A DNA stretch of 64,000 nt. Source: Wenzhouxiangella limi (GTDB lineage Bacteria; Pseudomonadota; Gammaproteobacteria; Xanthomonadales; Wenzhouxiangellaceae). Position 1 is the first letter of the stretch; every line of letters begins with the position of its first letter. The DNA lies in contig NZ_JAAGSC010000039.1 of NCBI RefSeq assembly GCF_010499265.1, positions 30,779 through 94,778 of the forward strand, read 5' to 3'. Below the pieces are notes generated by a model. It was not told where the DNA came from. It saw only the letters and a program-made list of their open reading frames with translations, and made no database searches. The position numbers and the translations under genes are program-made. This document shows positions 29,021-53,950 of the stretch, piece after piece.

Positions 29021-29964
29021 CGGGCTGGCCGCCAATCCAGCGCGGCGTTCGCCAGCCAGACCGCAAATTCCATCGCCGTCGCGATCAGCCGCAGCCACAA
29101 AGCACTGACCAGGGCCGCTTCCGGCGACAGACCGGAGGCGAGAAAAACAAAAGCCCCCTCCCGTACGCCGATGCCGGCGGGAATCACCACCACCCCCTGA
29201 CCAATGATGCGAGCCGCGGCATAGGCGCAGATCACCGACACCATGCCTGAAAGATTCAGCTGTTGATCGGCCTCGGCGACCGCCTGCCAAAGCGGAATCA
29301 GTGCCCCACCTTGCAACACTCCGACGAGGATGAACAAGGCGAACCCAACCGCCCACTGGCCCACCGACCCTTCGAACACCAGGTGCTGCCGCCATCGGGC
29401 CGGCAGCGGCAGGCTGCGCTGGGCGACGGCAAACAACGGGCGTGGCGCCAGTGCCCAGGTCAGCGCCGCGGCCAGGGCGGCGGCCAGACCAATCTTGGCC
29501 GTGGTGCTCAAGGATTGAGCTTGCGACAGCAACAAAGGCAGGCTGCCGATGGCCAAAACGGCGGCGCTGGCCGTCAGATGCATCTGGGCCAGCAAGTAGC
29601 TGCGCAGTGCAGGCGCCGGCGCAACCAGGTCGGCCAACCGGTCGCACAGGACAACGGCCGGCCAAACCTTGCCCGGAACATAGCGGCTGATGAATGACTG
29701 CATGAAGGCGGAAAAAAGCCCTCGCGGCCCCGCTGGCGTCACGGTCCCTGCATGAAAGCGCAGCATCCACCACCAGCCGGCCATCATGGTCAGCAACCAC
29801 AGCAGACTGAGTGCGGCTGACAGCATGACCGCGTCCAGCCCCGGCACGACGGTCTGCTCGACCACAGACCCGCGCAGCTGCAACAAACGCTGGCTCAAAA
29901 AGCCCAGCGCCAGCGCCAGCAAGACGTAACCCAGCGCGCGCCTGAGCCAACGCCAGTGCGTCAT
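29017..29964 (-). CDS. Lysylphosphatidylglycerol synthase TM-region-like membrane protein (PF03706 type)
   Basis: 315 residues with about 8 hydrophobic helices. FISRYVPGKVWP and VVIPAGIGVREG are the hallmark loops of the UPF0104/PF03706 family, which includes the flippase part of MprF and membrane proteins of glycolipid pathways. By position between a sulfotransferase and tadA, it may help move or modify a lipid-linked product; this is inference. It starts in a TGATG overlap with the sulfotransferase gene. Confidence 0.8.
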   Translation of the reverse strand: MTHWRWLRRALGYVLLALALGFLSQRLLQLRGSVVEQTVVPGLDAVMLSAALSLLWLLTMMAGWWWMLRFHAGTVTPAGPRGLFSAFMQSFISRYVPGKVWPAVVLCDRLADLVAPAPALRSYLLAQMHLTASAAVLAIGSLPLLLSQAQSLSTTAKIGLAAALAAALTWALAPRPLFAVAQRSLPLPARWRQHLVFEGSVGQWAVGFALFILVGVLQGGALIPLWQAVAEADQQLNLSGMVSVICAYAAARIIGQGVVVIPAGIGVREGAFVFLASGLSPEAALVSALWLRLIATAMEFAVWLANAALDWRPAR

Positions 29965-30932
29965 CAGCGATTGACCGGCAGTGGTCCCAGCGTGCGCAGC
30001 GCCAGCTTGCGCCGAATCACGCAGGGGATGTAGCCAGTACGGTGGGTGGCGTAGTGACGCACTTGCGCTGCCAGGCCGACCAAACGCCGGGCCGCGAAAC
30101 CGGATCGAGGGAGCCAGCCCGGCCGCAGTCCGCCGCCGGTCTGGCGCGCGTAGCCCAGCTCATCCATCAAATCACCGCAAATCGACTCGACCAGCGCGAT
30201 CTGAGAGGAGTCAGTCCGGCTTTGCCAGGCATGGACCGAGCGCGCCGAAACCGGCTGCGCCAGACCGGCGTGAATCCCCTGGTAATAGCTGCCGTAAGCA
30301 TCGGGTGCGCGTTGATGGTATTCGAGCATGGCCGGTTGAAAATCGAGGTCCAGAAAGGCACACACGCTTCGCAGCACGACCTCCGGCTCATTCACCAGAC
30401 GCTCATAGGTAATGCGCAGCACCTCGTCGGGATGATCGCGTTCGAAATCCAGACCGGCAGCCACGTCATTCTTCCAGCGGCACGCGGCGTGGTACCAGGT
30501 CGAGCGATGCACCTCCGAGCGGACCAAAGAACTGGCGACAGCGCGCGGATCACGGACAACATGCACGAAGCGCGCTCCCGGAAAGTGCGTTCTCAGCAAA
30601 CGCATATAGCGCACGAAGCGAGGGGTTTTCTGCCCCCAGCGCTGCTTTTGTTGGCGGTTCAGGTAGAGTCGGTGAACGCGGTCAACAAGCTGCGCAGCCG
30701 ACCGACAATTGTTCAAATCAGCTGTGGTACAGGACAGTCCCCATTCCTTGAGCTCGTATTCTTTCGGTAACAGTCGCTGCAGCGCCGGCAGCGGCCGCCG
30801 TGCATTGAGATAATCAATGATGAACAGCGACTCCAGCGGCACGCCGACCAGTGAATGACTGTCGAGCATGGAACGCAATAGCGTGGTTCCGGAACGACCA
30901 CAGCCGACTATAAAAAACGGAGCAGAAAACAT
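29964..30932 (-). CDS. Sulfotransferase family protein
   Basis: 322 residues from the ATG at 30932. FIVGCGRSGTTLLRSML at the N terminus is the 5'-phosphosulfate-binding loop, and FVHVVRDPRAVASSLVRS is the 3'-phosphate-binding segment, so it should use PAPS. ITYERLVNEPE fits the family. The acceptor is unknown; neighbours suggest a glycolipid or polysaccharide. PAPS could come from CysD/CysNC, 10 kb away. Its start is 5 bases after the stop of the upstream membrane-protein gene. Confidence 0.88.
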   Translation of the reverse strand: MFSAPFFIVGCGRSGTTLLRSMLDSHSLVGVPLESLFIIDYLNARRPLPALQRLLPKEYELKEWGLSCTTADLNNCRSAAQLVDRVHRLYLNRQQKQRWGQKTPRFVRYMRLLRTHFPGARFVHVVRDPRAVASSLVRSEVHRSTWYHAACRWKNDVAAGLDFERDHPDEVLRITYERLVNEPEVVLRSVCAFLDLDFQPAMLEYHQRAPDAYGSYYQGIHAGLAQPVSARSVHAWQSRTDSSQIALVESICGDLMDELGYARQTGGGLRPGWLPRSGFAARRLVGLAAQVRHYATHRTGYIPCVIRRKLALRTLGPLPVNR

Positions 30933-30937
30933 CCGGA

Positions 30938-32767
30938 TTATTTCGCCTGCCAGGGCTGCTGCTTGTCGGAGTGTCGCTCTGCTGACATTGTCCGGACGGT
31001 GGTGAACCAGTTGCCGGAAACAACCTCGAAGCCTTCCAGTGCATGGTAGCTCTCCGCCACAGCACGCAACTCTGCCCGTCGTTCGTCGGCTGGTGGCCAG
31101 GTATAGCTGTCCCAACGCATATGGAAATGGGGCACGACCAACACGTCGAAGTCCACCTCGTTGAGCAGTTGCGCGCGCTGCGCCGCGCTGGCTGATTGCG
31201 TCAGCCGCTCGCGCAGCGCCTCCGGCCAGGAAGCGACTGCCAGGCGGCGGGGCTTGTCGCCGGAGACGTTGAAGGTCCGGCATCCTGCACGCGCGCACAA
31301 GTAGGTCGAAAAAAACTCGTTGCCGTAGCGGTCACCGGCCACGAAGACCACGCGCTCACCTGGACTGACCAGCGTTGACAGTTCTTCGATTGCAGCGGAA
31401 TCGAGCTGCCGGAAAGCGTTCGAAAAACCTTCGCTTAATGCCAGACGATGAGAAAAATCGGGAAAATACTCAGCAGCTACCCAGAGCAGCAGCGTGATGG
31501 CAACAGCATTGCCCGGGCGGCCGCGTCCAGTTAACTCCTGGAAAAAGAGCATCAGCATAGCCACCAGTCCTATGGCAACCAGGAGGTACCAACGCGAGAC
31601 CGATCGCATATTGGAAAACGGCGCGATCTCGTAAACAAACGCATGGGGCAAACCCACCACCGCAGCCTCGGCGGGCATTCGATAGGTATCAAAGGTCACG
31701 GGGGCATCAGCAACACGGTCTTCAGCCACCGAGGCAATTTTCAGCGAAGGCCCGAGCGCCATCAGAAAGGCGGCCACCACTGAAACCAGCAAGACCATAT
31801 GCAACGTATTTCGCCAGGGTCGCACCAAAATGACGAATCCCAGCAGACCCATCGCCAATCCGAGACCCAGGTAACTGTGAGCGGTCATCTCACCGTCGGT
31901 GTAAAAAAGCGCGGGCTCGAGAGCGCCGACACCCCACAGCGGACCCAGTGCGTACAACGCAGGATTTCGCGACAGAAAGGCCAAAAGATCGATACCCTGC
32001 CCGCGAAAATAGTCCATCGGCATAACCGCGTAATCCGCCCCGCCAGGAATGTATTGACGATAGAGAAAAACGGCGAGCAGTGCGGCGGCCAGCCAAACCA
32101 GGACACGAAGCACCTTAGACGGCCAGCTTGCGCGTGCGGCGGTCAGTAACTGCGCAATAGCCAGCCAGCCACCGAAGGTAAGCGCCATGACCAGACTGTA
32201 GGGCTCCTGGAACAGGGCCAACGAAAAAACCACCGCCAGCAACGCAAAAGCGAATACATGATTGTGTAAACGCCAAGCCACTAACTGGGCCCAAAGCACC
32301 GCCGGCAGCAGAGCAAAACCCCACAGCATGAGCGGGTAGCCACTCTTGGCAAAAACGATCGGCAGCGCAAGAAACAGGATCGAACCCGCCACCGCCAACC
32401 AGACATTTACGCCAATTGCGCGGAGAAACCCCTGGCTTCCCAGACCGGCCACATACAACACCAGCAACGAGGCCAGGTTCCATGCCGTGAGCAAATCAAC
32501 CGGGGCCAGTCTGCGGATCAAACCAGCCACCTGCACCATCGGCAATCCATAGGTCAGCGCATGCTGCTCACCCAGCGAGGTCAGCGGGCAGTAAAACCAG
32601 GCGCCAGTCTGAGCAAAGCATTCGATCGCGCCCAGCGCCGGCAGCATCAGGCCCAGCGACATCAGGTGATCCAGCGGCCAGGTCCCGTAGAGCGGTGCCA
32701 GGGAAAGCACCGGCAACCCCAGTAGCGCCAGGAACCACAGTCCGGAATCAGAGGAGTCCCGGCTCAA
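30938..32767 (-). CDS. Polytopic membrane protein, possible GT-C-type glycosyltransferase
   Basis: 609 residues. About 12 hydrophobic helices occupy residues 1-425, followed by a ~185-residue soluble C-terminal part. This plan resembles GT-C lipid-linked sugar transferases, but I cannot point to a certain catalytic motif. The predicted start is TTG overlapping the stop of the GT2 gene as TTGA, consistent with coupling. It sits between the GT2 and sulfotransferase genes. Confidence 0.6.
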   Translation of the reverse strand: MSRDSSDSGLWFLALLGLPVLSLAPLYGTWPLDHLMSLGLMLPALGAIECFAQTGAWFYCPLTSLGEQHALTYGLPMVQVAGLIRRLAPVDLLTAWNLASLLVLYVAGLGSQGFLRAIGVNVWLAVAGSILFLALPIVFAKSGYPLMLWGFALLPAVLWAQLVAWRLHNHVFAFALLAVVFSLALFQEPYSLVMALTFGGWLAIAQLLTAARASWPSKVLRVLVWLAAALLAVFLYRQYIPGGADYAVMPMDYFRGQGIDLLAFLSRNPALYALGPLWGVGALEPALFYTDGEMTAHSYLGLGLAMGLLGFVILVRPWRNTLHMVLLVSVVAAFLMALGPSLKIASVAEDRVADAPVTFDTYRMPAEAAVVGLPHAFVYEIAPFSNMRSVSRWYLLVAIGLVAMLMLFFQELTGRGRPGNAVAITLLLWVAAEYFPDFSHRLALSEGFSNAFRQLDSAAIEELSTLVSPGERVVFVAGDRYGNEFFSTYLCARAGCRTFNVSGDKPRRLAVASWPEALRERLTQSASAAQRAQLLNEVDFDVLVVPHFHMRWDSYTWPPADERRAELRAVAESYHALEGFEVVSGNWFTTVRTMSAERHSDKQQPWQAK

Positions 32768-39571: not shown

Positions 39572-39712
39572 CCAGCGCGCCTGCTGACTAACAATCCGCA
39601 GTCTAACACCGCGAAAGGGTTTACCTGAAACCCCACAAACGGTATCCTTGCGGGCTTCGATGGAAAACGGCATGCGCCGATGCCATCGAACGGATGCGAC
39701 AATAAGTCTTAC

Positions 39713-39805
39713 GGAGAGGTGGCCGAGTGGCTGAAGGCGCTCCCCTGCTAAGGGAGTATGGGGTTTGTAGCCTCATCGAGGGTTCGAATCCCTCCCTCTC
39801 CGCCA
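39713..39805 (+). tRNA. tRNA-Ser (anticodon GCT)
   Basis: Acceptor GGAGAGG pairs with CCTCTCC, with encoded CCA. The anticodon stem CTCCC/GGGAG holds the loop CTGCTAA, giving GCT. Long class II variable arm; T arm GGTTCGAATCC. Confidence 0.97.
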
Positions 39806-39967
39806 TCATCAAAGAAAGCCCGCCGCGCGCGGGCTTTTTTGATGATCGCTGCGAGGGAGGATCGATTCAACCCCTGCGGTTCGAACCGAGCCGAAGGCGA
39901 GGACGATGCGGCGCAGCCGCACCCGAAGGGCAAGCGCCGCAGGCGCGCAGTCAATCCCTCCCTCTCC
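39787..39967 (+). repeat. Direct repeat of the tRNA-Ser 3' end
   Basis: The 15-base AATCCCTCCCTCTCC occurs inside the tRNA (39787-39801) and again at 39953-39967. The sequence between contains another T-arm-like GGTTCGAACC at about 39880. This resembles an attachment-site duplication or a decayed tRNA copy. No integrase is present. Confidence 0.7.
39815..39840 (+). terminator. Terminator of tRNA-Ser
   Basis: AAAGCCCGC and GCGGGCTTT pair across a 5-base loop, followed by a T-run. Confidence 0.9.
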
Positions 39968-40010
39968 AAGCACGCTGTTTCCAAAGAACCTGCCTCTAGC
40001 AGGCTGGAGA

Positions 40011-40030
40011 TCCCGGCTCTTTGGCCGGGA
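40011..40030. repeat. REP-like palindrome
   Basis: TCCCGGC and GCCGGGA surround a 6-base loop, followed by TGACAG. It belongs to the same family as 59108-59139 and 62229-62260, and lies between tRNA-Ser and the convergent cysNC gene. Confidence 0.75.
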
Positions 40031-40101
40031 TGACAGGGCCAGCGCGGATTATTTTAGCTATTCCGGGCTCGGTTAGCACAAAAGTCTGGGACTGTGCCTG
40101 G

Positions 40102-41991
40102 TCAACCCTTTGCGTGGTCGCCGAGAATCACCCGCACCAGTTCCTCCGCCAATTCCTCCGCCCTCGCCTCCACCGTCTTCAGCACCATCTCGGCGTTTTC
40201 CGGCACCTCGTACGGCGCGCTGATGCCGGTAAAGTTCGGAATCAGGCCGGCGCGGGCCTTGGCGTACAGGCCCTTGACGTCGCGCTGCTCGCAGACCTCC
40301 AGCGGGGTGTCGACGAACACCTCGATGAACTCGCCGTCAGGGAAACGCTCGCGCACCATGCGCCGCTCGGAGCGGTAGGGGGCAATGAAGCTGACCAGCA
40401 CGATCAGGCCGGCGTCGGTCATCAGGCGGGCGACCTCGCCGACCCGGCGGATATTTTCGATCCGGTCGGTCTCGGTGAACCCTAAGTCGCGGTTGAGCCC
40501 GTGGCGGACGTTGTCGCCGTCGAGCAGGTAGGTGTGGTGGCCCAGGGTCAGGAGCTTTTTTTCGGCCAGGTTGGCAATGGTCGACTTGCCCGAGCCCGAC
40601 AGACCCGTCAGCCAGACGCACTTCGGCACCTGGCCTTTCTGGCGGGCACGCACGCTTTGATCGACATCAACCGCCTGCCAGTGGACGTTCTGGGCGCGCC
40701 GCAGGGCATAGTCGATCACCCCGGCCCCGACCGTGCCGTTGGTCTGGCGGTCGATGATCACGAAGCTGCCCAGGTCGCGATTGAGCGCATAGGGCTCAAA
40801 CGGGACGGCGCGGTCAAGTTCCAGATCGACCCGGGCGACGGCGTTGAGTGAGAGCTCGCGCGCGGCCAGCTCCTCCTGGGTATTGACGTCGATCTGGTGC
40901 TTGATCTCGCTGACCCGGCCGCCGACCACGCTGGTGCCGGTCTGGATCCAGTAGTTGCGCCCGGGTTTGAGCGGCTCGGCGTCCATCCACAACAGATGCA
41001 CGCCGAACTGGTCGGAGACCTCCGGCGGATCGGCCGCCGCGGCCAGCACGTCGCCGCGGCTGACGTCGATTTCCTCGGTCAACTCGACGATCACGGACTG
41101 GCCGGCAAGCGCCTGGTCGACCGTCTCGGACCCCACGTGCAGCCCGGCGACAGTCGAGCGCCGCCCCGAGGGCAGTGCCACGACCGCATCGCCGACCTTC
41201 AGCGGCCCGCCCAGCAGCGGTCCGGCAAAACCGCGAAAGTTCTGATTCGGGCGACATACCCACTGCACCGGCAAACGGAACGCGCCGTCGGGGGCCTGGC
41301 CCTGCTCTGCCGCGGCCGCCTCCAGCGCCGCCAGCAGACTCGGGCCCTTGTACCAGGGCGTGTTGAGCGAGCCCTGGATGACGTTGTCACCATCCAGGCC
41401 CGAGATCGGAATGGCCGTCACCCGCGCGATGCCCAGTTGATCGGCCAGGAAGCGGTAGTCGGCCACGATTCGCTCGAACACGGCGCGATCAAAGTCGACC
41501 AGGTCCATCTTGTTGACCGCCAGCAGCACGTGGTCGATACCCAGCAGCGAACAAATGTAGCTGTGCCGCCGGGTCTGGGTCAGCACCCCTTTGCGCGCAT
41601 CGATCAGCACCACCGCCAGCCGCGCGGTCGACGCACCCGTGGCCATGTTGCGGGTGTACTGCTCGTGCCCGGGGCAGTCGGCGACGATGAACTTGGCCGC
41701 GTCGGTATCGAAAAAGCGGTAGGCGACGTCAATCGTGATGCCCTGCTCGCGCTCGGCGGCCAGGCCATCGACCAGCAGGGCGAAATCCAGCTTCTCGTTC
41801 TGGGTGCCGTGGCGCCGACTGTCGGCTTCCAGGGTCGCGAGCTGATCGGCGAACAGGCGCTTGGAGTCATACAGCAGCCGGCCAATCAGCGTGCTCTTGC
41901 CGTCATCGACGCTGCCGCAGGTAATAAAGCGCAGCAGGGGTTTGGTTTCGTGGGTTTCCAGGCGCGCCTGGACGGGGGATAGGGTCGTCAT
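40102..41991 (-). CDS. cysNC: Bifunctional sulfate adenylyltransferase subunit 1 / APS kinase (CysNC)
   Basis: 629 residues. The N-terminal GTPase (CysN) has [24 protein letters not shown] and NKMD; the C-terminal APS kinase (CysC, from about 445) has GLSGSGKST. With CysD it makes APS from sulfate and ATP, then phosphorylates APS to PAPS. In the kinase, the segment equivalent to FISPHR of E. coli CysC reads FIAPYR, so the serine that can be phosphorylated is Ala. The gene is the last of the cysD - GGDEF/EAL - cysNC operon, 10 bases after its neighbour. Confidence 0.95.
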
Positions 41992-42001
41992 TGCAAAAGG
42001 G

Positions 42002-44191
42002 TCAGTTTATCGGTAATCCATAGTGCCGGGCAAACTCCGCAAAGGGCGCCGGTCGGTCGAAAAGATAGCCCTGAAACACCGGGCAGCCCAGCTGCTTGAG
42101 CAGATCGCGGTGGGCCTCGGTTTCCACGCCTTCGGCCACCACGTCCATGTTCAGCGTCTTGGCCAGGGCGATGATGGTTTCGGTGATGCCGCGGTCGTTT
42201 TCATCAACCATCAGGTCGCGCACAAAGCCCTGATCGATCTTGACCTGACCGATCGGAAGGCGCTTCAGGTAGGCCAGCGAAGAGTACCCGGTCCCGAAAT
42301 CATCCAGCGAGAAGCCAAGACCCAGGTCGCGTAGCGCCTTCATGCGGGCAGAAATCTCTCCCAGATCGCGGGCCAGGGCACTTTCGGTGATTTCAAGCTT
42401 CAGCGACGACGGGCGCAGGGGCTGATCGGCCAGCGTATCGGCCAGTTTTTCCATGGCAAAGAACTGATCGACTTCCTTTGCATTGATATCCAGCTGTAGC
42501 GCCGAAGACCGCAGTGGCTGATCGGCCAGTATGCCCGCCAGCTGTTCGACGAAATCGGGCTGCTCGAAGTGCTTGGCGCTGATGTTGACCGAAAGAGACA
42601 GCTGACGGGTGCGCTCGTCGGCGGCCCAGTGTAGCAACTGCTGCACTGCCATTCGCACCACTTTGTACCCAAGCTCCACGATCAGACCGCTGGCCTCGGC
42701 GATGGGAATGAATTCTCCGGGCGCAAGCAGTCCGCGCTCGGGATGCTGCCAGCGAATCAGCAGTTCCGCGCCCACCAGCCGACCTTCGGCATCGACCTGG
42801 CCCTGGTAGAAAGGCACCAGTTGCTCGGATTGAATCGCCTCGCGCAACTCGACTTCGATGCGGTGACGCTGGAGCAGGCCCGACTGCACCTGGGGATCGA
42901 AAAAAGCAAACGTGTTCTTGCCGGCCGACTTGGCCTGGTACATCGCGATGTCGGACTGCTGCATCAGTTCGTCGATGGACTGCTCCTGGCCAACGAACAG
43001 CACCGCACCCATGCTGGCGGTCACGCGATGCTCCAGCCGGCCATGCCCGAACGGCTCGGCGAGCGCGCTGAGGATCTTTTCGGCCACGCGCTCGACCCGC
43101 TCGGCAGCGTCCACCGGGTCGATCGAAAGATCGGCCAGCACCACCACGAACTCATCCCCGCCCAGCCGGGCGACCATGTCGGACTCGTACAGCGTGTTGG
43201 TCAGCGTGCGGGCAACGCGAATCAACAAGTCATCGCCCTGGCGCGGACCCAGGGTGTCGTTGATCAGCTTGAAATTATCGAGATCCAGAAACAGCAGCGC
43301 GTTGTACTGACGGCTGCGCTGCGATCCGGCCATACGGAACTTCAGCTGCTCCTCCACCAGACGGCGGTTGGGCAGGCCGGTCAGCGCATCCTGGAAGGAC
43401 AATTGCTCGATGCGCTCCTGGAAACGCTTGTTTTCGGTGATGTCGGTCTGCAGGGCCATGAAGCCATCAAGTCTGCCCTCGCGGTCGAGCACCGGCGAGC
43501 AGGCGATATGCAGCCAGTATTCGCGGCCCGATTTCGTGTAATTGATGACTTCAACCCGGAACCCCTCGCCGGCGGCCAGCTGGCGGGCCATGTGCGCCAC
43601 CGTTTCGGGATCGGTGTTTTCACCCTGTAGCAGATCACCGGGCTTTTGCCCTTGCATTTCTTCGAGGGAAAACCCGGTCATGCGCTCAGTGCCGTCGTTG
43701 ACCCAGGTCACCCGCCCTTCGGCATCGGTAAAGATCACGCCATGCTGGGTCTGGGCAACGACCTCCGAAAGCTGCTCCAGCATGGTCTCCTGGGACTTGA
43801 ATCCGGAAATGTCCTGCACCGTCGTGACCTTGAAGTGCCGGCCGTCGGCCGTGACCACGCGCCCCGCCGTGACCATCACGTTGCGGATCTCGCCGTTCTT
43901 GTGCTGGACGCGCCACTCACCGGCACTTTCCTCACCGCCGTCGATGTAATCATCGTGGGCGCGCCCCGCCGTCTCGCGCAGGTCTTCCGGCAGCACCTTG
44001 GTAAAGGGCTGCCCGATCAGCTCCTGGCGCTCGTAGCCGTAGGTGCGGCAGTAGGCGTCGTTGACCAGCACGAACCGGCGATGCTCGTCGGTCACGCAGA
44101 TTCCGATATTGGCCGAGTTGTAGACACTCTGAAGAAAAACCAGCCGCTCGTTGGCCGGTATCCGAAGATCCCGGCTGACCGGATCGTCCAC
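42002..44191 (-). CDS. PAS-PAS-GGDEF-EAL protein inside the cysD-cysNC operon
   Basis: 729 residues, no membrane segment. Two PAS domains (about 10-135 and 138-260), GGDEF at about 270-430 with intact ARLGGDEF near 344, then EAL at about 445-715. The EAL motif reads GAELLIRW, with [23 protein letters not shown] and AEGVETEAH retained, so phosphodiesterase activity is plausible. Five residues before GGDEF the sequence is YESD, not RxxD, so the product-inhibition I-site is lacking. The GTG start directly follows the TAG of cysD, implying coupled translation. The location links c-di-GMP turnover with sulfate activation. Confidence 0.92.
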
Positions 44192-45088
44192 CTAGAAGTA
44201 ACCTTCCATCTTTTTCTTCTCCATCGATGCCGACTCGTCGCGGTCGATCGCCCGGCCCTGACGCTCGGACGACGTCACGGCCAGCATTTCGGCGATCACC
44301 GCCTCCATCGTATCAGCATCCGACTCCACCGCCCCGGTAAAGGGGTAGCAGCCCAGCGTGCGGAAGCGCACCTTGCGCATCTTCACCTCGTCCGGGTCGA
44401 CCGGCAGGCGGTCGTCGTCGACCATGATGATCAACCCGTCGCGGATCACGGTCGGGCGCTCGGCGGCCAGATAAAGCGCCGGGACCTGCACGTTTTCGCG
44501 GTAGATATACAGCCAGATATCGAGCTCGGTCCAGTTCGACAGCGGGAACACGCGCACGCTCTCACCGGAGTGGATGCGGGCGTTGTAGAGGTTCCACAGC
44601 TCCGGGCGCTGGTTTTTCGGGTCCCAGCGGTGCTGGGCGGTGCGGAAGGAAAACACCCGCTCCTTGGCGCGAGATTTTTCCTCATCGCGGCGCGCCCCAC
44701 CCAGCGCGGCGTCGACCTTGTGCCGGGTCAGCGCCTGGCGCAGCGACTGGGTCAGCATCACGTCGGTGTGCACCGTGGCGCCGTGATCAATGGGGTTGAT
44801 GCCCTGATCAAGGCCGTCCTGGTTCATGTGCGCGATCAGCCGGCAGCCGGTCTCCTCGGCGCGGCGGTCGCGAAACCCGATCATCTCGCCGAAATTCCAG
44901 CCGGTGTCGATGTGCATCAGCGTGATCGGCGGTGGTGCCGGGTAAAACGCCTTGACCAGCAGGTGCAGCAGGACCGAGGAGTCCTTGCCGACCGAATAGA
45001 GCATGATCGGGTTCTTGAAGCCGGCCGCGACTTCGCGAATGATGTGGATCGCCTCGGCTTCGAGGCGGTCGAGATGGCTGAGGTTCAT
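44192..45088 (-). CDS. cysD: Sulfate adenylyltransferase subunit 2
   Basis: 298 residues from the ATG at 45088, next to the family length of ~302. [14 protein letters not shown] is the PP-loop; HIDTGWNF and [20 protein letters not shown] match CysD. With CysN it adenylylates sulfate. An upstream extension of the frame (to 45166) has no ribosome binding site. First gene of the three-gene operon and divergent from the WecA-like gene. Confidence 0.95.
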
Positions 45089-45202
45089 TCCGGTGGTCGG
45101 CAAAATAGTCCCTTGGAGATTATCCCACAAACTCTCCCTGCTGTAGCGCGGTCTGGATCGTTCCATCGCGATCGACTCTGCTACACTTTCCTTAGGCGTA
45201 AC

Positions 45203-45244
45203 AGGGGAGCAATCAGCATGCTCACCATGCGGGAATGCGCGTGA
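45203..45244 (+). promoter_or_regulatory. Possible 8-codon leader ORF upstream of the WecA-like gene
   Basis: AGGGGAG (45203-45209) is well spaced for an ATG at 45218 that opens an 8-codon frame (MLTMRECA) ending in TGA at 45242-45244. This overlaps the ATG of the WecA-like gene at 45235. The main gene has only a weak GGGA very close to its start, so re-initiation or coupling from the leader is plausible. Confidence 0.45.
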
Positions 45245-46311
45245 TCGGACCTTTATCTGTTCAAAGCTGGCTGGCCGTGGGCGCAGGCTTCGTGTTTGTG
45301 TCCTTCCTGATTCCGCTGCTTTGCAGACCGGCCGAGTATTTGGGCTTGCTTGACCTGCCCAATGAACGTAAATTGCACGGAGAGCCGGTACCCATGATCG
45401 GCGGCATCGGCATGTTCATAGCCTTCTGTGCCAGTCTGCTGTTGATTCCAGAGCCGTTGCGGCCTTATGCCAGCCTGGTCATTGGTATGGGAATCCTGCT
45501 TGCCACCGGTCTGGTAGATGATGCCCTGGACATTACTCCAGCCTCCAAGCTGATCTTGCAGTTGTTGGCGGCTGTACTAATGGTTTCGTGGGGCGAGGTA
45601 CAAGTCCATTCGTTCGGAGACCTGTTCGGCACTGGCGAGATCGAATTAGGCGAATGGGCTATTCCATTTACCGTTTTGGCCACGGTGTTCATGATCAACT
45701 CGATGAATATGGCTGACGGCACAGACGGCCTAGCGGGCGGGCTTTCGGTCCTGATTCTGGTATTTCTGGCCATTCTTGGAGCCGTAACTGGCGCACGCGA
45801 AGGCTTTGTCGCACTGAACCTGCTACTGGCCTCAACCACCTGCGGCTTTCTGCTTTTCAATCTGCGTACCCCATGGCGCAAAAAAGCCAGCGTCTTCATG
45901 GGTGATGCCGGCGCAATGATGCTGGGGTTTGCCATTGCCTGGCTGTCCGTTCACCTGGGACAGAAGTCTGCCGGAACGGTCTATCCCATCACTATCGCAT
46001 GGGTGTTGGTTCTGCCCGTGACGGATCTGGTGACCAGTTATTTCCGACGTCTGATACGCGGCCAGAGTCCCTTTTCAGCCGACAGCGAGCATCTGCACCA
46101 CATCCTCTTGCGGGCCGGATTTTCGGTTGGTGCGGTGGTCGGTTTGTTGTTCAGTTTCCAGATCTTGTTTTCGCTGATCGGACTAATGGGCTGGTATTTC
46201 GGGTGGCCCGAGAGCTACTTGTTTCTCGGACTGGCCTCAGTTTTCGTTCTACATTATGGGCTATCGATACGAGCCTGGAAACTCATGAAGTGGCTCAAAG
46301 TACATCGATAA
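45235..46311 (+). CDS. Undecaprenyl-phosphate sugar-1-phosphate transferase, WecA/TagO-like
   Basis: 358 residues with about 10-11 helices. Signature loops of the GT4/MraY superfamily are present: [30 protein letters not shown] and [10 protein letters not shown]. It transfers a HexNAc-1-phosphate from a UDP-sugar to undecaprenyl phosphate, the first step of a lipid-linked polysaccharide. It opens a less GC-rich plus-strand cluster. The start is ATG 45235 or GTG 45241. Confidence 0.92.
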
Positions 46312-46321
46312 GGGGACGGCG

Positions 46322-47761
46322 TTGGCCGAACTGGCCTTAACAGAAGCGTTGACTCTGCTGGCATTTTTGATATTGCCCTGCCTCGCCGTAATGCTGGTTG
46401 TAAGTCAGCTGCTCGATGCTAAAAAACCCGGTACCCGGTCAATAAAAATAGGCACCGCCCTGATCTTCGGCCCCTTGATGACGGCCCCGGCACTTGTGAC
46501 CGCAAACGCCATCGGGCTTCGGATATCAACTTCGTCTGCTCTGACCGGTCTTTTCATAATCGCACTGGCAATATACTTGCCGACCTGGCTCGCAGGAGGC
46601 AAAAACCGGGTAGGACACTCCGAAAAACGCTCCACCGCTCAATTGCCGATTCTGATTTCAGAACGCACCGACCGGATGGTGATTGCGATAATGTTTGGCC
46701 TGATAGTCCTGCGACTTGCCTCCATACTGCCGGATCTTCTGCTCCGCCCTGTATTTCCCTGGGACGCTTGGAAAACCTGGGTCTGGAAAGCACGAGCATG
46801 GTTTGAAATCGGCGAAATCATTTCGTTCGCCAACGCCCGCGAATGGCTGTCTGCCCCGGCCAACGTCCATATCGTTGAGGGGACCAACCACCCGGACACA
46901 ATATCGCTGGTGATGCTCTGGTCAGCCCTAGCCTTGGGCCGCTGGGATGATTCTCTGCTGGGCCTACCGTGGATTATGTGCACCATCGGCACAATGCTGT
47001 CTATTTACGGCGCTCTGCGTAGTCAGGGCCTGCCACCCGTACTAGCCTTAATCGGGCCTTACTTGTTCGTCTCGCTGCCGATGATAGCCACCCATACCGC
47101 GCTGTACGGATACGCGGACCTCTGGATGGCCGCGCTGTTTGCCGTGCTGACTGTCGGCATATTGCAGCAACAGATGACAGGCGGATTATTCGGCCTGCAT
47201 CTAATCGGGGCCAGTATGATATTCATGGCTTTTGTCAAAGATACGGGTAGCTACTGGATCCCGATAATCATCGCGGCTCTATTGGCTAACGCGCTACCCA
47301 ACCGATGGCTTTTTCGGCTGGGGCTAATTGGTTCGGGGATCGGACTCTCCCTGCTGGCACTGGGCATGGACCCCATAGCGTGGCTAACGCAGGAACGCTT
47401 TCATCTAGATCCTCAATCAGTTACCGCAGTATTCAGCGGTATCGCCCGCCATCTACTCCTATGGCACGACTGGCATTTGCTAGGCTACCTGCTGCCCTTT
47501 ATTTTTTTGGCAGCTGCATTAGTAGGAACGCAGTCCCAACCAATACGCTCACTCCTTATTCTCGTGCTGATGTGCTTGGCTGGTCTACTGGTAGCATTTA
47601 CCTTCTCACGAGCAGGGCAGTACGCAATCATCGGTACCCTTTTTAGCCGTATGTTCATGCACTTGGTACCCGCCGTTATTATTTTATCTACCCTCACGGC
47701 TTGGGAGTGGAAACTGGCAGCTACAAAAGGGAATAAGGAATGCACTGGCCCCTTCCTCTGA
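46322..47761 (+). CDS. Polytopic membrane protein, possible GT-C glycosyltransferase
   Basis: 479 residues with about 11-12 helices. TTG start with AAGGGGA 7 bases upstream, 10 bases after the WecA-like gene. The loop FPWDAWKTWVWKARAW after the third or fourth helix has the acidic/aromatic character of GT-C first loops, but no family is certain. GC content is clearly lower than in housekeeping neighbours. It overlaps the next gene by 22 bases. Confidence 0.6.
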   Translation: MAELALTEALTLLAFLILPCLAVMLVVSQLLDAKKPGTRSIKIGTALIFGPLMTAPALVTANAIGLRISTSSALTGLFIIALAIYLPTWLAGGKNRVGHSEKRSTAQLPILISERTDRMVIAIMFGLIVLRLASILPDLLLRPVFPWDAWKTWVWKARAWFEIGEIISFANAREWLSAPANVHIVEGTNHPDTISLVMLWSALALGRWDDSLLGLPWIMCTIGTMLSIYGALRSQGLPPVLALIGPYLFVSLPMIATHTALYGYADLWMAALFAVLTVGILQQQMTGGLFGLHLIGASMIFMAFVKDTGSYWIPIIIAALLANALPNRWLFRLGLIGSGIGLSLLALGMDPIAWLTQERFHLDPQSVTAVFSGIARHLLLWHDWHLLGYLLPFIFLAAALVGTQSQPIRSLLILVLMCLAGLLVAFTFSRAGQYAIIGTLFSRMFMHLVPAVIILSTLTAWEWKLAATKGNKECTGPFL

Positions 47762-48969
47762 TTCTGCGGTTGCCGCTCGCCATGTTGGTGACTGCCGTGG
47801 CCTTATGGGGCGGCTTTGTCGCCTGGGCACTGCATGGGGAAAATTACGGGACTTTGTTCCCGGATCTGATGATTGAACCGGATCCGCTGGATTGGCGTTT
47901 GACTGAGGGCAAGGGCGCTTTGTCGCCAGAAGGAATGGAAATTCATGAACCCGGTGATCGCGCGCGCTGGGTTCTTGCCATCAGACTCCCAACTATTTTG
48001 CATGCGAAAAGATATGACCGACTACAGGTGCTCACCAACAACGCTGGTCTTAATCATACATTGACGGTTCACTGGAGCCGTACCCCTCAATATCTGCCCG
48101 CTGGAGGCCTGCCACTTTCCGTTACCGAAAATGGTGTCTACGAGACTCGCCTTAGCGATCTTACGGGCTGGCAAGATCAAATATACTTTTTGGGATTAGA
48201 AAGCTTCGGAGCGCCAAGAAACCAATTTTCCATCAAAGCTCTACGGCTGCATCAGGCCAAGCCGGATCTGAGAAGCCTGCACCGACGCATCGCTGAAGAT
48301 TGGTTTGCATTTCCAAGCTGGTCCCAACAAAGTATCAATTTCATCCGATCCGGTGCGGAGAAAAGCCACCTTTCGCTTCTAGTTGCCATAGCAATCTGGG
48401 TGCTTGCCACCGGGCTTGCATTGATGGCTCTGTCAACGAGCCGATGCCGTCAGGCGTTACCATGGTTAACTGTTCCCTTGGTATTTGGCTGGTTGATACT
48501 CGATCTGCGTTGGCAGATCACGCTGCTGGCCAATAGCGCTCAAGCCGTCACGCAACTTGCCTCACTGAGTTTAGACGAGAAACGGGAGGTTGGCCATGAT
48601 GAAAATCTCTACCGCTTTCTGAATGCACTTTCGGATCTGGCTAACCCAGAGTTCGGCGGCCGAGTCTTCGCCATCGGCCGCAATGAATACTGGCGGACCC
48701 GTGTTCGATACCATCTACTTCCGCTTTCGGTCCGTACAGCAGGAAGCAATGAATGGAACCAAAATGTGGTCTCGGCGATGCAGCCAGGCGACGTCATCCT
48801 ACTGCTCGACACGCCGGGCATCTCTAAAGATAAGCTGCCAGACGAACTGCGGTACCGAATTTTTCCAAATCAGGGTAAGAATACCTATCTCTTGGTCGAG
48901 CTAATAGCAAATACTGGCGACTTCAAAGCGTTCCGAGTACTGGAAAAGGCTGCGCGGCAGGAATCGTGA
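47740..48969 (+). CDS. Unknown membrane-anchored protein with two transmembrane segments
   Basis: 409 residues. An N-terminal anchor (about 8-30), a periplasmic region to about 205 rich in beta strands (RLQVLTNNAGLNHTLTVHW), two closely spaced hydrophobic helices around 210-265, and a C-terminal soluble domain (GGRVFAIGRNEYWRTRVRY, VISAM-like and PGDVILLLDTP). I recognise no family. Tight overlap with the upstream gene suggests a shared role in glycan assembly. Confidence 0.6.
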   Translation: MHWPLPLILRLPLAMLVTAVALWGGFVAWALHGENYGTLFPDLMIEPDPLDWRLTEGKGALSPEGMEIHEPGDRARWVLAIRLPTILHAKRYDRLQVLTNNAGLNHTLTVHWSRTPQYLPAGGLPLSVTENGVYETRLSDLTGWQDQIYFLGLESFGAPRNQFSIKALRLHQAKPDLRSLHRRIAEDWFAFPSWSQQSINFIRSGAEKSHLSLLVAIAIWVLATGLALMALSTSRCRQALPWLTVPLVFGWLILDLRWQITLLANSAQAVTQLASLSLDEKREVGHDENLYRFLNALSDLANPEFGGRVFAIGRNEYWRTRVRYHLLPLSVRTAGSNEWNQNVVSAMQPGDVILLLDTPGISKDKLPDELRYRIFPNQGKNTYLLVELIANTGDFKAFRVLEKAARQES

Positions 48970-48974
48970 AGAGT

Positions 48975-49778
48975 TCAGTTGCCATTGCGATACCCACGAA
49001 GCGAATTAAGCACATGCGCTCCCAGCAATCTAATACTCCGACTCCACCCCAAGCATTCCTGGTTGCGATAGATCCGGTAAATATCCGCCGCCTTGCGTAA
49101 CTTGGCTGTGGAAAGAGAATGAGCTTGAACCGAATAAACCGCTTCTACACCAGGATAGCGACGGGCAACGACACCGTCGCGCGTCAAGGCCAGCCAAAGG
49201 CCCCAGTCGTGGCCGCGCCTCACATTTGGCATGAAGCACTTCCCCAGTGAATTTTGATCGTAGGCTACGGTCAAGCATCCAATCGGACAGCCCTTCAGAA
49301 AGTCGGAATGACTTAGCTGGTCGGGTGCCAACACTGTTCCCAGAATGACACCAGAGCGTTGATCCCGTCGCATGTAGTCGCCGTAAGAAAACAGCGTGCC
49401 CGTCTCCTGCATGAACGCAATCTGGCGCGCGAGTTTAGACGAACCCCATTCGTCGTCGCTGTCAAGGAAGGCTATAAACCGGCCCTGGCAGCGTTCAATA
49501 GCGCGATTCCTGGCAGCTGCTGCGCCCAGATTTCCTTGTCGGACCACCGTCAAGTGGGGGTGTTCGTCTTGAAGCCGCTCAAGTACCTCGGCGGTCCCGT
49601 CGGTTGAGCCGTCGTCAACGATGATGTGCTCAAGGACCGGCAGCGTTTGCTCGGAAACAGAGCGTACTGTTCTTTCGATATCAGCACAAGCGTTGTAGGC
49701 GGGTGTGACCACGGAAACAGCGCTCGAATCAAGATCCGATCGCCCGGCCGAAAGCTTTGTTTCCAATTTTTGGCTCAT
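48975..49778 (-). CDS. GT2 family glycosyltransferase
   Basis: 267 residues. SVVTPAYNACADIERTV, HIIVDDGSTDGTAEVLERL and AFLDSDDEW give the GT-A fold with nucleotide-binding and DxD motifs. No membrane helix. Sugar specificity unknown. It lies on the opposite strand between two plus-strand genes, so any transcript running through the cluster would be antisense to it. Confidence 0.88.
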   Translation of the reverse strand: MSQKLETKLSAGRSDLDSSAVSVVTPAYNACADIERTVRSVSEQTLPVLEHIIVDDGSTDGTAEVLERLQDEHPHLTVVRQGNLGAAAARNRAIERCQGRFIAFLDSDDEWGSSKLARQIAFMQETGTLFSYGDYMRRDQRSGVILGTVLAPDQLSHSDFLKGCPIGCLTVAYDQNSLGKCFMPNVRRGHDWGLWLALTRDGVVARRYPGVEAVYSVQAHSLSTAKLRKAADIYRIYRNQECLGWSRSIRLLGAHVLNSLRGYRNGN

Positions 49779-49873
49779 TGCTGATATTGTATCCTCGCAG
49801 CCGGCCGCTCGGCTTCTGCCAGCGGGTTGCGTACCGCTATCACTTTTTATCCGGTAGACCGACGGAACTGACC

Positions 49874-51643
49874 ATGTTCAACCTTGTCCATGAGACCAAG
49901 CTGGCCCTATCCTGGGTGTGGCGGGTATTGGCTGCTTTTTTCAGGGTCAGGCCATGGACCACAGCAGCGCTGATTAGCGCTTTTGCACTGAAGAACATCT
50001 TCTCCTTGCTGGCCGGTTTTCTGCCTCTAAAAGTCATTTTATTGGCAGGCTCAGACGGGGTTCCCCGCTACTTTCGCTTTTTTATGCCGGTCGATGCGGA
50101 CAAGGTCCCTTGGATTATTGGCTTCAGCGCAGCCGCGGTGATCTTCTTTTTGCTTGTTATGGTCATGGAGGCCGTAGCGAAGAAACTATCCGCAACCGGT
50201 AGCTACGAGGTTTTGCAGGGCGCCAATGAGTTGGCCGTTGCAAGCAAGCAGCGAGAGGAAGCCGGGGGATATTTTTCTCAGTTTAGCGAGATTGCGGCCA
50301 ACGTAGTGATCGCCTCGTTCGCGCTGACCTTGCTTGCAGCTGTCAACCTGGCAATATTTGTCACTTTCACCGGCCTGCTTTTGCTCGAATATCTTTTTAC
50401 CGCCGGCGTGATGGCATTTACCGACCCACTCAAACCGGGAGCAATTCGAAAAGCGATTCAAAGCAAGGTTCGAAATTATCTAGGCTTGCTATTCTCTTTG
50501 AACTTCCTGGCCTGCTTTTTTGTATTACTTGTTCCTTTCCTGACCGGGGTGGGCGGTAACTTATTGCTCGCGATCCTGACTTTGCTGTTGCTGCGTCAAG
50601 CCAGCGGTGCGGTCGGCGGAATCATTCAGCACATCCGTAAGTTGTGGACCAAGCGCGCCGAGGTGAGCCCGCTCGTTTTTCGCGAGGAACGGACTCGCGA
50701 GAGCGAAAAGCTGACGACTCGAGAATTACGGCTGATGTTTGCACCTCGGCTGCGTACTGCGACAACCCTGAAACGGCTGAAGGCTACCGGAATTCCCGTC
50801 CGTTCCGTGGAGTCATGTTGGCAGGACCCGAAAATTCGTGGTGCTTACACCTTCCACGTCAAGGCGGAAATGGAAGAATCGGTAAAAAAAACCAAGGTCA
50901 GGCATTTCCAGCACCAGGTCTTCCCCGTTAGGCAATTGCATCTGCTTGAACACGAAGAGTTTCTTTTTTCCCGGATTTCCCGAAAATCGGTGCGCGCCCC
51001 CCTTGTGCTGAGTCGGTATGAAGATGAACCGTTTGCTTGCCAGGTCTGCGAATACGGCACCGGCAAAATCGTTGACGTGAAAGGCTGGCAGCGAAAATCG
51101 CTAGAAGTACTCGAAGAGCTCTGGTGCCTTGATTTATCGCGTGAACTGATTTCCGCTTATCGAACTGCGCATCCAGGCCTGGAAGCGCGCCTTTTGCCGG
51201 AGTTTCTGCAGCGCCTGGAGGTCGTGCTCGAAAGTGCAAGTCTGCAGCACGTATACCATACATTCCTTGATGCTTTGCCCCGCCTGCACTCAGTGGTCAG
51301 CCAAGTGCCACTGCATTTGCACAACCCGGACATGACTAATTCCCACGTCGTACTGGATGATGATGATCAGCCGCTGATAATGACGTGGACGCGCTGGCAA
51401 TTGCTACCACTTGGTAGCGCATTGCCCGCCAACCTGACCCGGGAGCTACTGAAAGAAATGCTGGAACGGGTGTGTCTTAAGCGCAAAATCGATCCTGATT
51501 CACTTTTGCCCGCGCATCTTTTGCTGGTCAGGGACTGTCAAAAACTTGAAGACACCGTAAAGCGCGAACACTATCGGTCGGCTTTCTCGATCATGGAAAG
51601 CATCCTCGCCAATGAACTTGTGCTCGAGGCCATCGATCAGTGA
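49874..51643 (+). CDS. Membrane protein fused to a kinase-like C-terminal domain
   Basis: 589 residues from the ATG at 49874. Residues 1-300 hold about 6 hydrophobic helices with soluble loops. Residues 340-589 look like a degenerate aminoglycoside/lipopolysaccharide-kinase fold: an N-lobe-like stretch with LEHEEFLFSRI, then LHLHNPDMTNSHVVLDDD and PLIMTWTRW where active kinases have HxDxxxxN and a metal-binding iDW. The DW aspartate is Thr and the catalytic Asp is out of register, so it may be a pseudokinase. Family not recognised. The stop overlaps the next start as GTGA. Confidence 0.55.
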   Translation: MFNLVHETKLALSWVWRVLAAFFRVRPWTTAALISAFALKNIFSLLAGFLPLKVILLAGSDGVPRYFRFFMPVDADKVPWIIGFSAAAVIFFLLVMVMEAVAKKLSATGSYEVLQGANELAVASKQREEAGGYFSQFSEIAANVVIASFALTLLAAVNLAIFVTFTGLLLLEYLFTAGVMAFTDPLKPGAIRKAIQSKVRNYLGLLFSLNFLACFFVLLVPFLTGVGGNLLLAILTLLLLRQASGAVGGIIQHIRKLWTKRAEVSPLVFREERTRESEKLTTRELRLMFAPRLRTATTLKRLKATGIPVRSVESCWQDPKIRGAYTFHVKAEMEESVKKTKVRHFQHQVFPVRQLHLLEHEEFLFSRISRKSVRAPLVLSRYEDEPFACQVCEYGTGKIVDVKGWQRKSLEVLEELWCLDLSRELISAYRTAHPGLEARLLPEFLQRLEVVLESASLQHVYHTFLDALPRLHSVVSQVPLHLHNPDMTNSHVVLDDDDQPLIMTWTRWQLLPLGSALPANLTRELLKEMLERVCLKRKIDPDSLLPAHLLLVRDCQKLEDTVKREHYRSAFSIMESILANELVLEAIDQ

Positions 51644-53595
51644 TATTCCGCCAAGCAGTCAAGGCCATCCCGGGTGCGGTCTGGCTGAAAAGAAAGCTTT
51701 TCGGCCTCGGTTTTTCTGGCACCGTCCACGTGCCGCTACGTCGCGCCAGCGACAGGGGCGCAGTTCCGGCAAGAAAACGCATTCCACGGCCACCGGACTT
51801 TCCCGCACAACCGCGTTTCGTGCTGTATCGCATTATCGGAAATGATCTGGTGCCGCGCCACCGAAAAGGCCAGGCGCGCGCGAACCTCCCATTCATCCTG
51901 CGGCACGAATCGAATTGGCCTGATTGCGAAAAATGGTTTTTAGTCAACCGCATCGTCGACAAGGACGAAGAGGCTGCCATCATCAGGCTACTGGAAAACG
52001 CTGGCTGTCGCTACCTGCACATTCCCTTCGAACACCAGGAATATGCCTCCTTTGGCTGGGACTTAAAGGGGGTTCCCCCAAGCTTCCTGCCAACCAACGG
52101 CGACTTTTATCGCTTGAAACCTGAGCAAAAAGCCCGCGTCATCGCGCGCTTAAACCGCCTGAAAATCAACTATTTCACCCACAATAACGGCGCCCGAAAC
52201 ATTGCGCTCGAACATGGCAGGTCACGCGCGGACTGGATATTGCCTTGGGACGGCAATTGTTTCCTAAGCGATGAAGCTTGGCATGAAATCCGCTCTGCGC
52301 TGCTTGAAAAGCCGGACACGCCTTACTGGCTTGTGCCAATGGCTCGCTGCACGGACAACAATTTGTTGTTGCAGTCGGACTTCCGTCCCCTGGCAACAGA
52401 CGAACCACAGATAATATTTCGACGGGATGCCGAGGAATGTTTCGACGAGGAGTTCATCTATGGCCGGCGACCCAAGGTGGAGTTATTCTGGCGGCTTGGC
52501 GTGCCCGGGCCCTGGGATGACTGGGGGATAGAACCATGGGATCACCCATGCCCGCCTTTTTCTCCGGATGCGGGCGCATGGTCACAAACGGGATGGGTTG
52601 CGAGGCTATCGTCCGGCCGCCGGGATCTGGAAGCGAGCAAGAGCAGTGATTCCATTACCCCTGATTCGAACCGGGCCCTTATTCGGGCACAAGCCTGCAT
52701 GGGACTGGTCGACCGGCTTGATCAAGAACTTATTTCAAGAAAGCTCAATAACGCACAACCCCTTCTAGGCACTAACAACACGCCGCCCCATGCACCGGAG
52801 GTGGTCAACCAGGCGCTGCGATATGCCGGATCGGCCTTCGCGCTTTGGGATGGAAGTCGTCAAAACATTGCGATGAGAAGCGCAATGCAGGCCTGTTTCA
52901 CGCTGACACTGGCGTGCACCTACGATCGTGAGAAGGCAGATAAGGAGGCGACCAACGCCAACGGGCGGGAGCAGAAGGTCAGGCGCACGCTGGCTGAGCT
53001 GGTCGGCAGACTGACTGAAATAAGCAACTGCGATAAACGCCGGTTTCGCGTGCCGCGTTCGAGGCGTTCGCGTGACAAATTTTTTCCGGAGCTGGTTTTC
53101 ATGCTCGATTGTCTCCGCTTAATGAAGGCATCTGACCCAGCATTTCATGAGATTGATCAGGGCCTTGCTGAATGGCTGCCAGCACGGGCGACTGCTTTGC
53201 AAGCCGCCTATCCTCTGGAGGGCGATGATCTAGCAGGCAGCTTGATGGAGAAAATAGCAATACACTACTATCTCGGCGATCTGATCGGCTTGAGAGATAC
53301 GCTAAGGGACGCACAAGCCTGGCGACAGACCGGTGGGTCACAGATCGGTGGAAACGCACGTCAAAGGTCGGCGGCCCTGCTGCTTGATCTTGTGGGCCGA
53401 CGCACATACGGCTTATCAAGCTGGCCCTCAATCGAGCAAACTCGTGACAATCAAACTGCAGAGGCTGGCGGAGCTATGGCTTGCACGCCTGTCACTCTCC
53501 AAACCTTGCGCATTCTGCAAGACAGTCGATTACGTCTCAGGGCTGACTCTGGGACTGCAACAAGCTCTCCAGCCGACCCAGCCAGAGACCAATAA
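51640..53595 (+). CDS. Large two-part protein, N-terminal glycosyltransferase-like
   Basis: 651 residues from a GTG start coupled to the upstream gene. The first ~300 residues contain RFVLYRIIGNDLVPRHRKGQ, NGARNIAL, WILPWDGNCFLS, EPQIIFRRDAEE and YGRRPKVELFWRLGVPGPWD, motif-rich and GT-A-like with a probable acidic metal site. The last ~300 residues are helical and unassigned. No signal peptide or membrane helix is evident, so a cytoplasmic glycosyltransferase for the polysaccharide is likely. The 3' end overlaps the VanZ-like gene on the other strand by 59 bases. Confidence 0.55.
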   Translation: MIFRQAVKAIPGAVWLKRKLFGLGFSGTVHVPLRRASDRGAVPARKRIPRPPDFPAQPRFVLYRIIGNDLVPRHRKGQARANLPFILRHESNWPDCEKWFLVNRIVDKDEEAAIIRLLENAGCRYLHIPFEHQEYASFGWDLKGVPPSFLPTNGDFYRLKPEQKARVIARLNRLKINYFTHNNGARNIALEHGRSRADWILPWDGNCFLSDEAWHEIRSALLEKPDTPYWLVPMARCTDNNLLLQSDFRPLATDEPQIIFRRDAEECFDEEFIYGRRPKVELFWRLGVPGPWDDWGIEPWDHPCPPFSPDAGAWSQTGWVARLSSGRRDLEASKSSDSITPDSNRALIRAQACMGLVDRLDQELISRKLNNAQPLLGTNNTPPHAPEVVNQALRYAGSAFALWDGSRQNIAMRSAMQACFTLTLACTYDREKADKEATNANGREQKVRRTLAELVGRLTEISNCDKRRFRVPRSRRSRDKFFPELVFMLDCLRLMKASDPAFHEIDQGLAEWLPARATALQAAYPLEGDDLAGSLMEKIAIHYYLGDLIGLRDTLRDAQAWRQTGGSQIGGNARQRSAALLLDLVGRRTYGLSSWPSIEQTRDNQTAEAGGAMACTPVTLQTLRILQDSRLRLRADSGTATSSPADPARDQ

Positions 53596-53935: not shown

Positions 53936-53950
53936 GATAAACAGATTGTA

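Follow-up and report, generated by a model that had tools for sequence, protein, structure and literature searches.

CysD and CysN form one enzyme complex, and their genes are a textbook pair. In Vibrio vulnificus, 3′-phosphoadenosine 5′-phosphosulfate (PAPS) and cyclic diguanosine monophosphate (c-di-GMP) are connected by a feed-forward circuit, in which cysDNC expression climbs with c-di-GMP. A cysH mutant of this species, expected to accumulate PAPS (PAPS itself was not measured there), showed raised c-di-GMP (PMC6113621, in the accessible part of that article). In Cobetia marina KMM 1449 and Vibrio sp. KMM 8419, cysD, cysN, and cysC lie together with sulfotransferase genes in polysaccharide clusters (PMC11766843, PMC11641403), and such a grouping has been termed a hallmark of sulfated polysaccharide synthesis (PMC11641403), again according to the accessible parts of these articles. 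Here, we describe a locus of Wenzhouxiangella limi in which a gene for a PAS-PAS-GGDEF-EAL protein, named GE in this text, lies between cysD and cysNC. The locus is contained in a stretch of 64,000 nucleotides (contig NZ_JAAGSC010000039.1 of assembly GCF_010499265.1, positions 30,779 to 94,778), which is called the window and to which all coordinates refer unless another locus is named. No description of a cysD-GGDEF-cysN gene order was found among the open-licence papers listed, judged mostly by titles and the beginnings of abstracts.

The draft genome of W. limi comprises 3.35 Mb in 44 contigs and has 99.6% completeness. On the minus strand, the genes run in the order cysD, GE, and cysNC, and all three open reading frames (ORFs) are intact. 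The cysD product (44192..45166), sulfate adenylyltransferase subunit 2, scored 477.7 with TIGR02039 (cut-off, 396.6) and also exceeded the cut-off of NF009214. The first in-frame ATG of cysD is at 45166; the ATG at 45088, chosen in the initial annotation, fits the starts of the homologs better and is more likely the start, because the homologs align only from residue 24-30 of the longer form. The cysNC gene (40102..41991) encodes a bifunctional sulfate adenylyltransferase subunit 1/APS kinase (NF004035, 974.9 against a cut-off of 715; TIGR02034, 608.1 against 336.1). Both proteins thus exceed the curated cut-offs expected of a CysD/CysNC sulfate activation operon, and the direct adjacency of cysD and cysN is lost to the 2.2-kb gene between them. 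This gene, GE (42002..44191), encodes 729 amino acids, begins with GTG and ends with TGA (42002-42004). Its GTG abuts the TAG of cysD (44192-44194). As the gap has zero length, the two genes automatically share one frame. Upstream of codon 33, the GE frame holds no ATG, GTG, or TTG besides the initial GTG. The spacer from the GE stop to the ATG of cysNC is 10 nt (41992..42001). The initial annotation had pointed to the splitting of the cysD-cysN pair by a PAS-PAS-GGDEF-EAL gene and to its tight spacing on both sides; the former is borne out by the coordinates, the domain matches, and the curated family cut-offs, and the latter was confirmed in the sequence.

With abutting intact ends, a contig of 305 kb, and an uninterrupted junction in relatives, the arrangement is confirmed as real and beyond chance. 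Scans of the region 39600-45500, which are of a weak type, gave 0 sigma-70-like sites (mean of 1.2 in shuffles) and six terminator-like sites (4.3 ± 2.4 in shuffles, hence not above chance). Since neither type of site exceeded chance, nothing argues for a separate transcription unit.

In the closest relatives (G019, G032, and G017; CysD identity of 83-85%), the two genes are joined as cysD-TGATG-cysNC, so that the ATG of cysN overlaps the cysD stop. Likewise, the cysD end TTC TGA is overlapped by the cysN ATG in two further family genomes, G026 and G030. The order guaB, mgtE, methyltransferase, cysNC, and cysD is retained in G019 and G017. Because the junction is uninterrupted and the synteny is kept in these relatives, GE is read as an insertion into an old block. 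The comparison shows that cysD-GE-cysNC is the derived state and that GE entered cleanly, in the register of the operon.

The insertion also affects the translation signals. Shine-Dalgarno (SD) strength was expressed as anti-SD duplex energy, for which the background has a mean of -3.2 and a standard deviation of 2.3 kcal/mol, with 24% at -5 kcal/mol or below. In all five relatives named above, the last cysD codons form a strong SD sequence for cysN (-9.8 to -10.8 kcal/mol). The corresponding place in W. limi (44189..44212, minus strand), where an SD-like GGAAGG in the final cysD codons is followed by the TAG and the GTG of GE, gave -6.2 kcal/mol. At the ATG of cysNC, no SD sequence was found within the spacer (+0.3 kcal/mol). 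As this comparison of duplexes shows, the ribosome-binding sequence that the relatives use for cysN stands before GE in W. limi, and cysNC has none of its own. For this reason, CysNC should depend on the translation of GE, which we infer as a new mechanistic prediction.

To place the arrangement, four samples were surveyed. The family sample contained 43 genomes, 28 of which had a CysD match; apart from W. limi, these are 27, of which 26 could be read across the junction and one, G031, could not because it lies at the edge of a contig. The order sample, outside the family, comprised 59 cysD loci, with CysN found in 58 (G287 is at a contig edge). The class sample comprised 24 loci with 22 close pairs, whose gaps were read by eye (G161 is split over two contigs, and G167 is without a pair). 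The named sample consisted of the best 80 of at least 588 confirmed CysD relatives, and so is not random; cysN was found in 78 of them, and the other two, L130 and L112, extend just 181 and 564 nt past cysD and do not contain it. Lysobacter and Xanthomonas ranked top among the named CysD matches listed. The samples overlap, since G054 occurs in two and the named and other sets may share genomes. Left out of the counts were fragments in G118, G160, and G178 of the class sample; in the order sample, weak matches in G252 and, as second matches, in G211, G262, and G278; and in the family sample, a piece of 25 residues in G031 and the second, broken copy of G016.

The gap between cysD and cysN was below 100 nt in 20 of the 26 family genomes and 329-2482 nt in the other six. 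Close pairs were also the rule in the order (57 of 58 loci, below 200 nt), the class (22 of 24), and the named sample (75 of 78; both below 300 nt). No c-di-GMP gene was detected at the junction in the other 26 CysD-bearing family genomes with a readable junction, in the 58 order loci (57 gaps are too small, and the content of the remaining one, G188, was read), in the 22 close class pairs, or in the 78 named loci with cysN, drawn from the best 80 of at least 588. GE-like matches away from the junction occurred in four of these 80 named loci. Among the genomes examined, the insertion is unique to one and looks like a one-off event. The idea of a recurring, selected operon was not supported by this gene neighbourhood survey; as far as species representatives show, the insertion is confined to one strain, the very outcome that the initial annotation had named as counting against its own interpretation, the co-regulation of PAPS supply and c-di-GMP signalling.

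We next consider where GE came from. Its codon distance of 0.075 is the third lowest among the 24 genes of the window, and its GC3 is 0.785; both values are ordinary here. Two paralogs in the same genome share 49% and 48% identity with the GGDEF-EAL part, and the other 29 aligned homologs share at most 43%. The tree unites GE with the two paralogs at a support of 87/86, which does not reach the starred level, and the branch of GE is long. The PAS pair found its best match outside its own genome, in the family search, in a different protein of 848 amino acids in G019 (61% over residues 14-266); in the order sample (151 genomes, with G019 not listed), the best match of the PAS part beyond W. limi itself was 54% over residues 139-257. 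Since the GGDEF-EAL part is closest to paralogs of the same genome and the PAS pair to another protein of G019, these similarities suggest that GE was assembled by domain shuffling within the lineage. No GE ortholog was found when genome contigs were scanned for the exact PAS-PAS peptide patterns, a scan that near records may have escaped. Horizontal gain was also considered and is not preferred, given the native codon use and the location of the closest catalytic module in its own genome, although the tree support is moderate and the branch of GE long.

GE contains PAS domains, a GGDEF domain (PF00990, E = 1.6e-44), and an EAL domain matched in two stretches (E = 5.1e-70). The GGDEF domain is full-length with an intact motif (LGGDEF). 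An inhibitory RxxD site before GGDEF is absent from many active diguanylate cyclases; in GE, this position reads YESD and thus does not form the site. The EAL positions invariant across the 32 aligned rows are all retained (E476, N536, E600, E603, D630, D631, K651, and E687), and we take them to be catalytic. Blue-light LOV sensors carry the photoactive Cys motif GxNCRFLQ; this motif is missing in GE, and its second PAS domain scored 80.4 against a cut-off of 250 with the YtvA family model.

The EAL domain is interrupted by a tandem duplication of 32 residues (42395..42586, minus strand), which spans residues 536-567 and 568-599, or lies up to three residues later, with 17 of 32 positions identical at period 32. 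The duplicated unit begins at the NIS motif, and the second copy has DIN instead. The 31 aligned homologs all show a 32-residue gap at this place, and none has an extra copy. In an AlphaFold2 model of the GGDEF-EAL part (mean predicted local distance difference test score, pLDDT, of 88.5), part of the duplicated segment is looped outside the barrel. A nine-stranded barrel was considered and rejected: no strand was assigned in residues 282-343 of the modelled fragment, and residues 307-321 (GE 561-575) had a pLDDT below 50. The nearest solved relative by sequence is the tandem GGDEF-EAL protein MorA of Pseudomonas aeruginosa (PDB 4rnh and 4rnf; E = 6.2e-96). MorA was also the best match by fold when the model was searched with Foldseek (template modelling scores on the query of 0.71 and 0.80). 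It differs in being without the duplication of GE, and one of its segments (residues 305-313) is matched twice in the alignment with GE. The gene context of MorA presumably differs from that of GE as well.

As for the use of the PAPS, the genome of W. limi gave no match to the sulfite reductase profile NIR_SIR (PF01077), which matched in 11 of 14 control genomes. The PAPS reductase CysH was not found in the genome, where the sole second PF01507 match is TilS-like by reading. Assimilatory sulfate reduction, taken as sulfite reductase plus PAPS reductase, was accordingly not detected. Within the family, NIR_SIR matched in 6 of the 28 CysD-bearing genomes versus 8 of the 15 without CysD (Fisher p = 0.046, in a test that takes no account of kinship or of genome incompleteness). 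W. limi has six PF13469 sulfotransferase matches, and one of them is inside the window (29964..31298, minus strand; E = 4.3e-36), a sulfotransferase-family protein and possible PAPS user. On the other side, a gene for a WecA-like sugar-phosphate transferase (45235..46311, plus strand; PF00953; TIGR02380 at 241.6, below the cut-off of 326; GC of 0.546) is divergent from cysD and is the first of a low-GC polysaccharide stretch; glycosyltransferase genes also adjoin cysD. Because neither sulfite reductase nor CysH was found and sulfotransferase matches and glycan genes by cysD are present, the PAPS from this operon probably serves sulfation rather than cysteine synthesis. The interpretation in the initial annotation, which had suggested a sulfated matrix polysaccharide as a possibility, is supported in part, as far as this probable use of the PAPS goes, although PF13469 matches are widely distributed in the family, as described below.

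The polysaccharide stretch (45235-54853) lies between cysD and glmS and has a GC of 0.50-0.56; four of its proteins have no Pfam or NCBIfam match. In G019, glmS directly follows cysD, with no such stretch between them. WecA-like genes near cysD are also present in G037, G036, and G016. Relatives of the neighbour proteins encoded at 46322-47761 and 47740-48969 occur in G032, and relatives of the latter also in G017.

The cysD-cysNC junction has received other genes as well. On the loci compared here, it is repeatedly opened in Wenzhouxiangellaceae: of the 26 other family genomes whose junction could be read, 6 have unrelated ORFs at this point. The inserts are PIN, ParE/RHH, and BrnT toxin-antitoxin genes with a 23S_rRNA_IVP protein in G016, a 23S_rRNA_IVP protein in G037, a methyltransferase in G036, and hydrophobic ORFs of 90, 101, and 91 amino acids in G040, G041, and G042. 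In the order outside the family, 1 of 58 loci has an insert, namely an AAA_21 ATPase and DUF4276 pair in G188 (L160, 4869-6760), and this pair matches PADLOC HEC-01 models. Repeats of the GTGTGAAGT type, together with a 23S_rRNA_IVP protein, separate cysD from cysNC in two relatives (L066, 1960-4440; L067, 8264-8795); the repeat and 23S_rRNA_IVP segment is possibly a mobile unit. G016 also has, near its intact cysD, a second and apparently frame-broken cysD-like copy beside a cysN-similar piece (L066, 6807-8143). In W. limi, a tRNA-Ser(GCT) gene adjoins the end of cysNC (region 39713-39967), and 15 bases near the tRNA 3′ end (39787-39801) are repeated exactly at 39953-39967, perhaps as the remnant of an integration site. 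A different kind of content was seen in two Vibrio loci (L101 and L113) and one Alteromonadaceae locus (L104), where cysC and a cysQ-like phosphatase or DHH phosphoesterase, named by reading, lie between cysD and cysN.

We favour a coupled operon. In this lineage alone, a native c-di-GMP turnover gene would have entered precisely between cysD and cysNC, in an operon whose PAPS goes to sulfotransferases and not to cysteine synthesis. CysNC would then come mainly from ribosomes that reach the stop of GE and initiate again after 10 nt, so that GE and PAPS synthesis would be co-expressed and the CysNC output would drop when GE is untranslated. Less firmly, GE, which has two PAS sensors and in which the GGDEF motif and the EAL residues are intact, might adjust c-di-GMP during the production of a sulfated surface glycan, and its net direction may be that of a cyclase or of a phosphodiesterase. 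A link between PAPS and c-di-GMP is biologically reasonable because such a circuit is known in V. vulnificus, and a functional coupling of PAPS to c-di-GMP is plausible in W. limi. The insertion may tie the sulfation of surface sugars to the c-di-GMP signal. To the whole of this, from the insertion and the takeover of the SD sequence to co-expression and the adjustment of c-di-GMP, we give about an even chance. A PAPS/c-di-GMP loop that is hard-wired by gene order in the strict sense is unlikely; in such a loop, GE would take the start signal of cysN, the CysD:CysNC ratio and the PAPS for sulfation would hinge on the translation of a PAS-controlled c-di-GMP enzyme, and PAPS would be used for sulfation only.

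Several points weigh against the coupled operon. Since the arrangement was seen in a single genome, any selection for it is hypothetical, and the cysD loci compared from the other 27 family genomes with CysD, many of them with flanks of at most 1.5 kb, gave no GE-like match. The SD duplex of GE is modestly above background only, and the duplication in the EAL domain may impair phosphodiesterase activity. A distance of 8.8 kb, which includes guaA and guaB, separates cysNC from the gene for the sulfotransferase-family protein of the window. Furthermore, sulfotransferase matches turn up in 41 of the 43 family genomes regardless of CysD, and so are not specific to CysD bearers. The genes for c-di-GMP turnover are abundant in W. 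limi, with 47 matches to GE and 25 of 65 candidates scored. Because the junction takes unrelated genes in relatives, a chance placement of GE is credible. Thus, GE may be a neutral passenger that landed by recombination at an insertion-tolerant junction and is co-expressed, with a c-di-GMP output not specific to sulfation. The unrelated ORFs in the six family genomes and in G188 are the main argument for this explanation, to which the numerous GE-like genes add, and we regard it as somewhat less probable than the coupled operon. It does not account well for the position of GE, with 0 nt before and 10 nt after it, which is far tighter than that of the family inserts in their larger gaps, two of them (G016 and G037) with repeat spacers. 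In addition, as the extra genes of the Vibrio and Alteromonadaceae loci read as pathway enzymes, the junction takes in more than stray genes.

The other explanations carry little weight. A slowing of oligoribonuclease (Orn) by 3′-phosphoadenosine 5′-phosphate (PAP) can reduce the clearance of pGpG and so raise c-di-GMP. The PAP released by sulfotransferases could act in this way, and the co-translated GGDEF-EAL protein would compensate for it; the phosphatases and phosphoesterases at the junctions of L101, L113, and L104, which are by reading of PAP- or oligonucleotide-clearing types, agree with this explanation, which we nevertheless consider improbable. Still less probable is a read-through of the cysD TAG by some ribosomes, by which a CysD-PAS-PAS-GGDEF-EAL fusion would bring the c-di-GMP enzyme to ATP sulfurylase. 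The shared frame and the single stop codon between cysD and GE would allow it, but the sharing of the frame follows from the zero-length gap, and a GTG with an SD-like sequence upstream stands immediately after the TAG. An artefact of assembly or binning that joined unrelated pieces is hardly credible: although the genome is a draft in 44 contigs, the contig is long, the three intact ORFs have abutting ends, both flanks are syntenic with relatives, and the composition of GE is native.

If the coupled operon is true, two signalling nucleotides, PAPS and c-di-GMP, are genetically wired in one operon, and their link is open to testing in a bacterium seemingly without the cysteine branch. If not, the junction within a textbook gene pair for one enzyme complex is still prone to insertions in Wenzhouxiangellaceae, and the locus warns against deducing function from the neighbours in an operon of a single genome.

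Compared with the known systems, the arrangement in W. limi differs in several respects. V. vulnificus has a cysDNTC operon without such a gene, and its link is regulatory (BrpT/BrpR) across separate loci, whereas in W. limi the GGDEF-EAL gene lies inside cysD-cysNC; V. vulnificus also reduces PAPS to cysteine, which W. limi apparently cannot do (PMC6113621, in the accessible part). The word diguanylate is absent from the main texts on the capsule clusters of Cobetia marina and Vibrio (PMC11766843, PMC11641403). In contrast to those clusters, the sulfotransferase gene of W. limi is 8.8 kb off, and the sulfated product is only predicted. The operons of L101, L113, and L104, with the order cysD-cysC-(phosphatase or DHH)-cysN, share with W. 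limi the presence of extra genes between cysD and cysN. However, by reading, these extra genes encode same-pathway enzymes or PAP-type phosphatases, and not a signalling protein such as GE.

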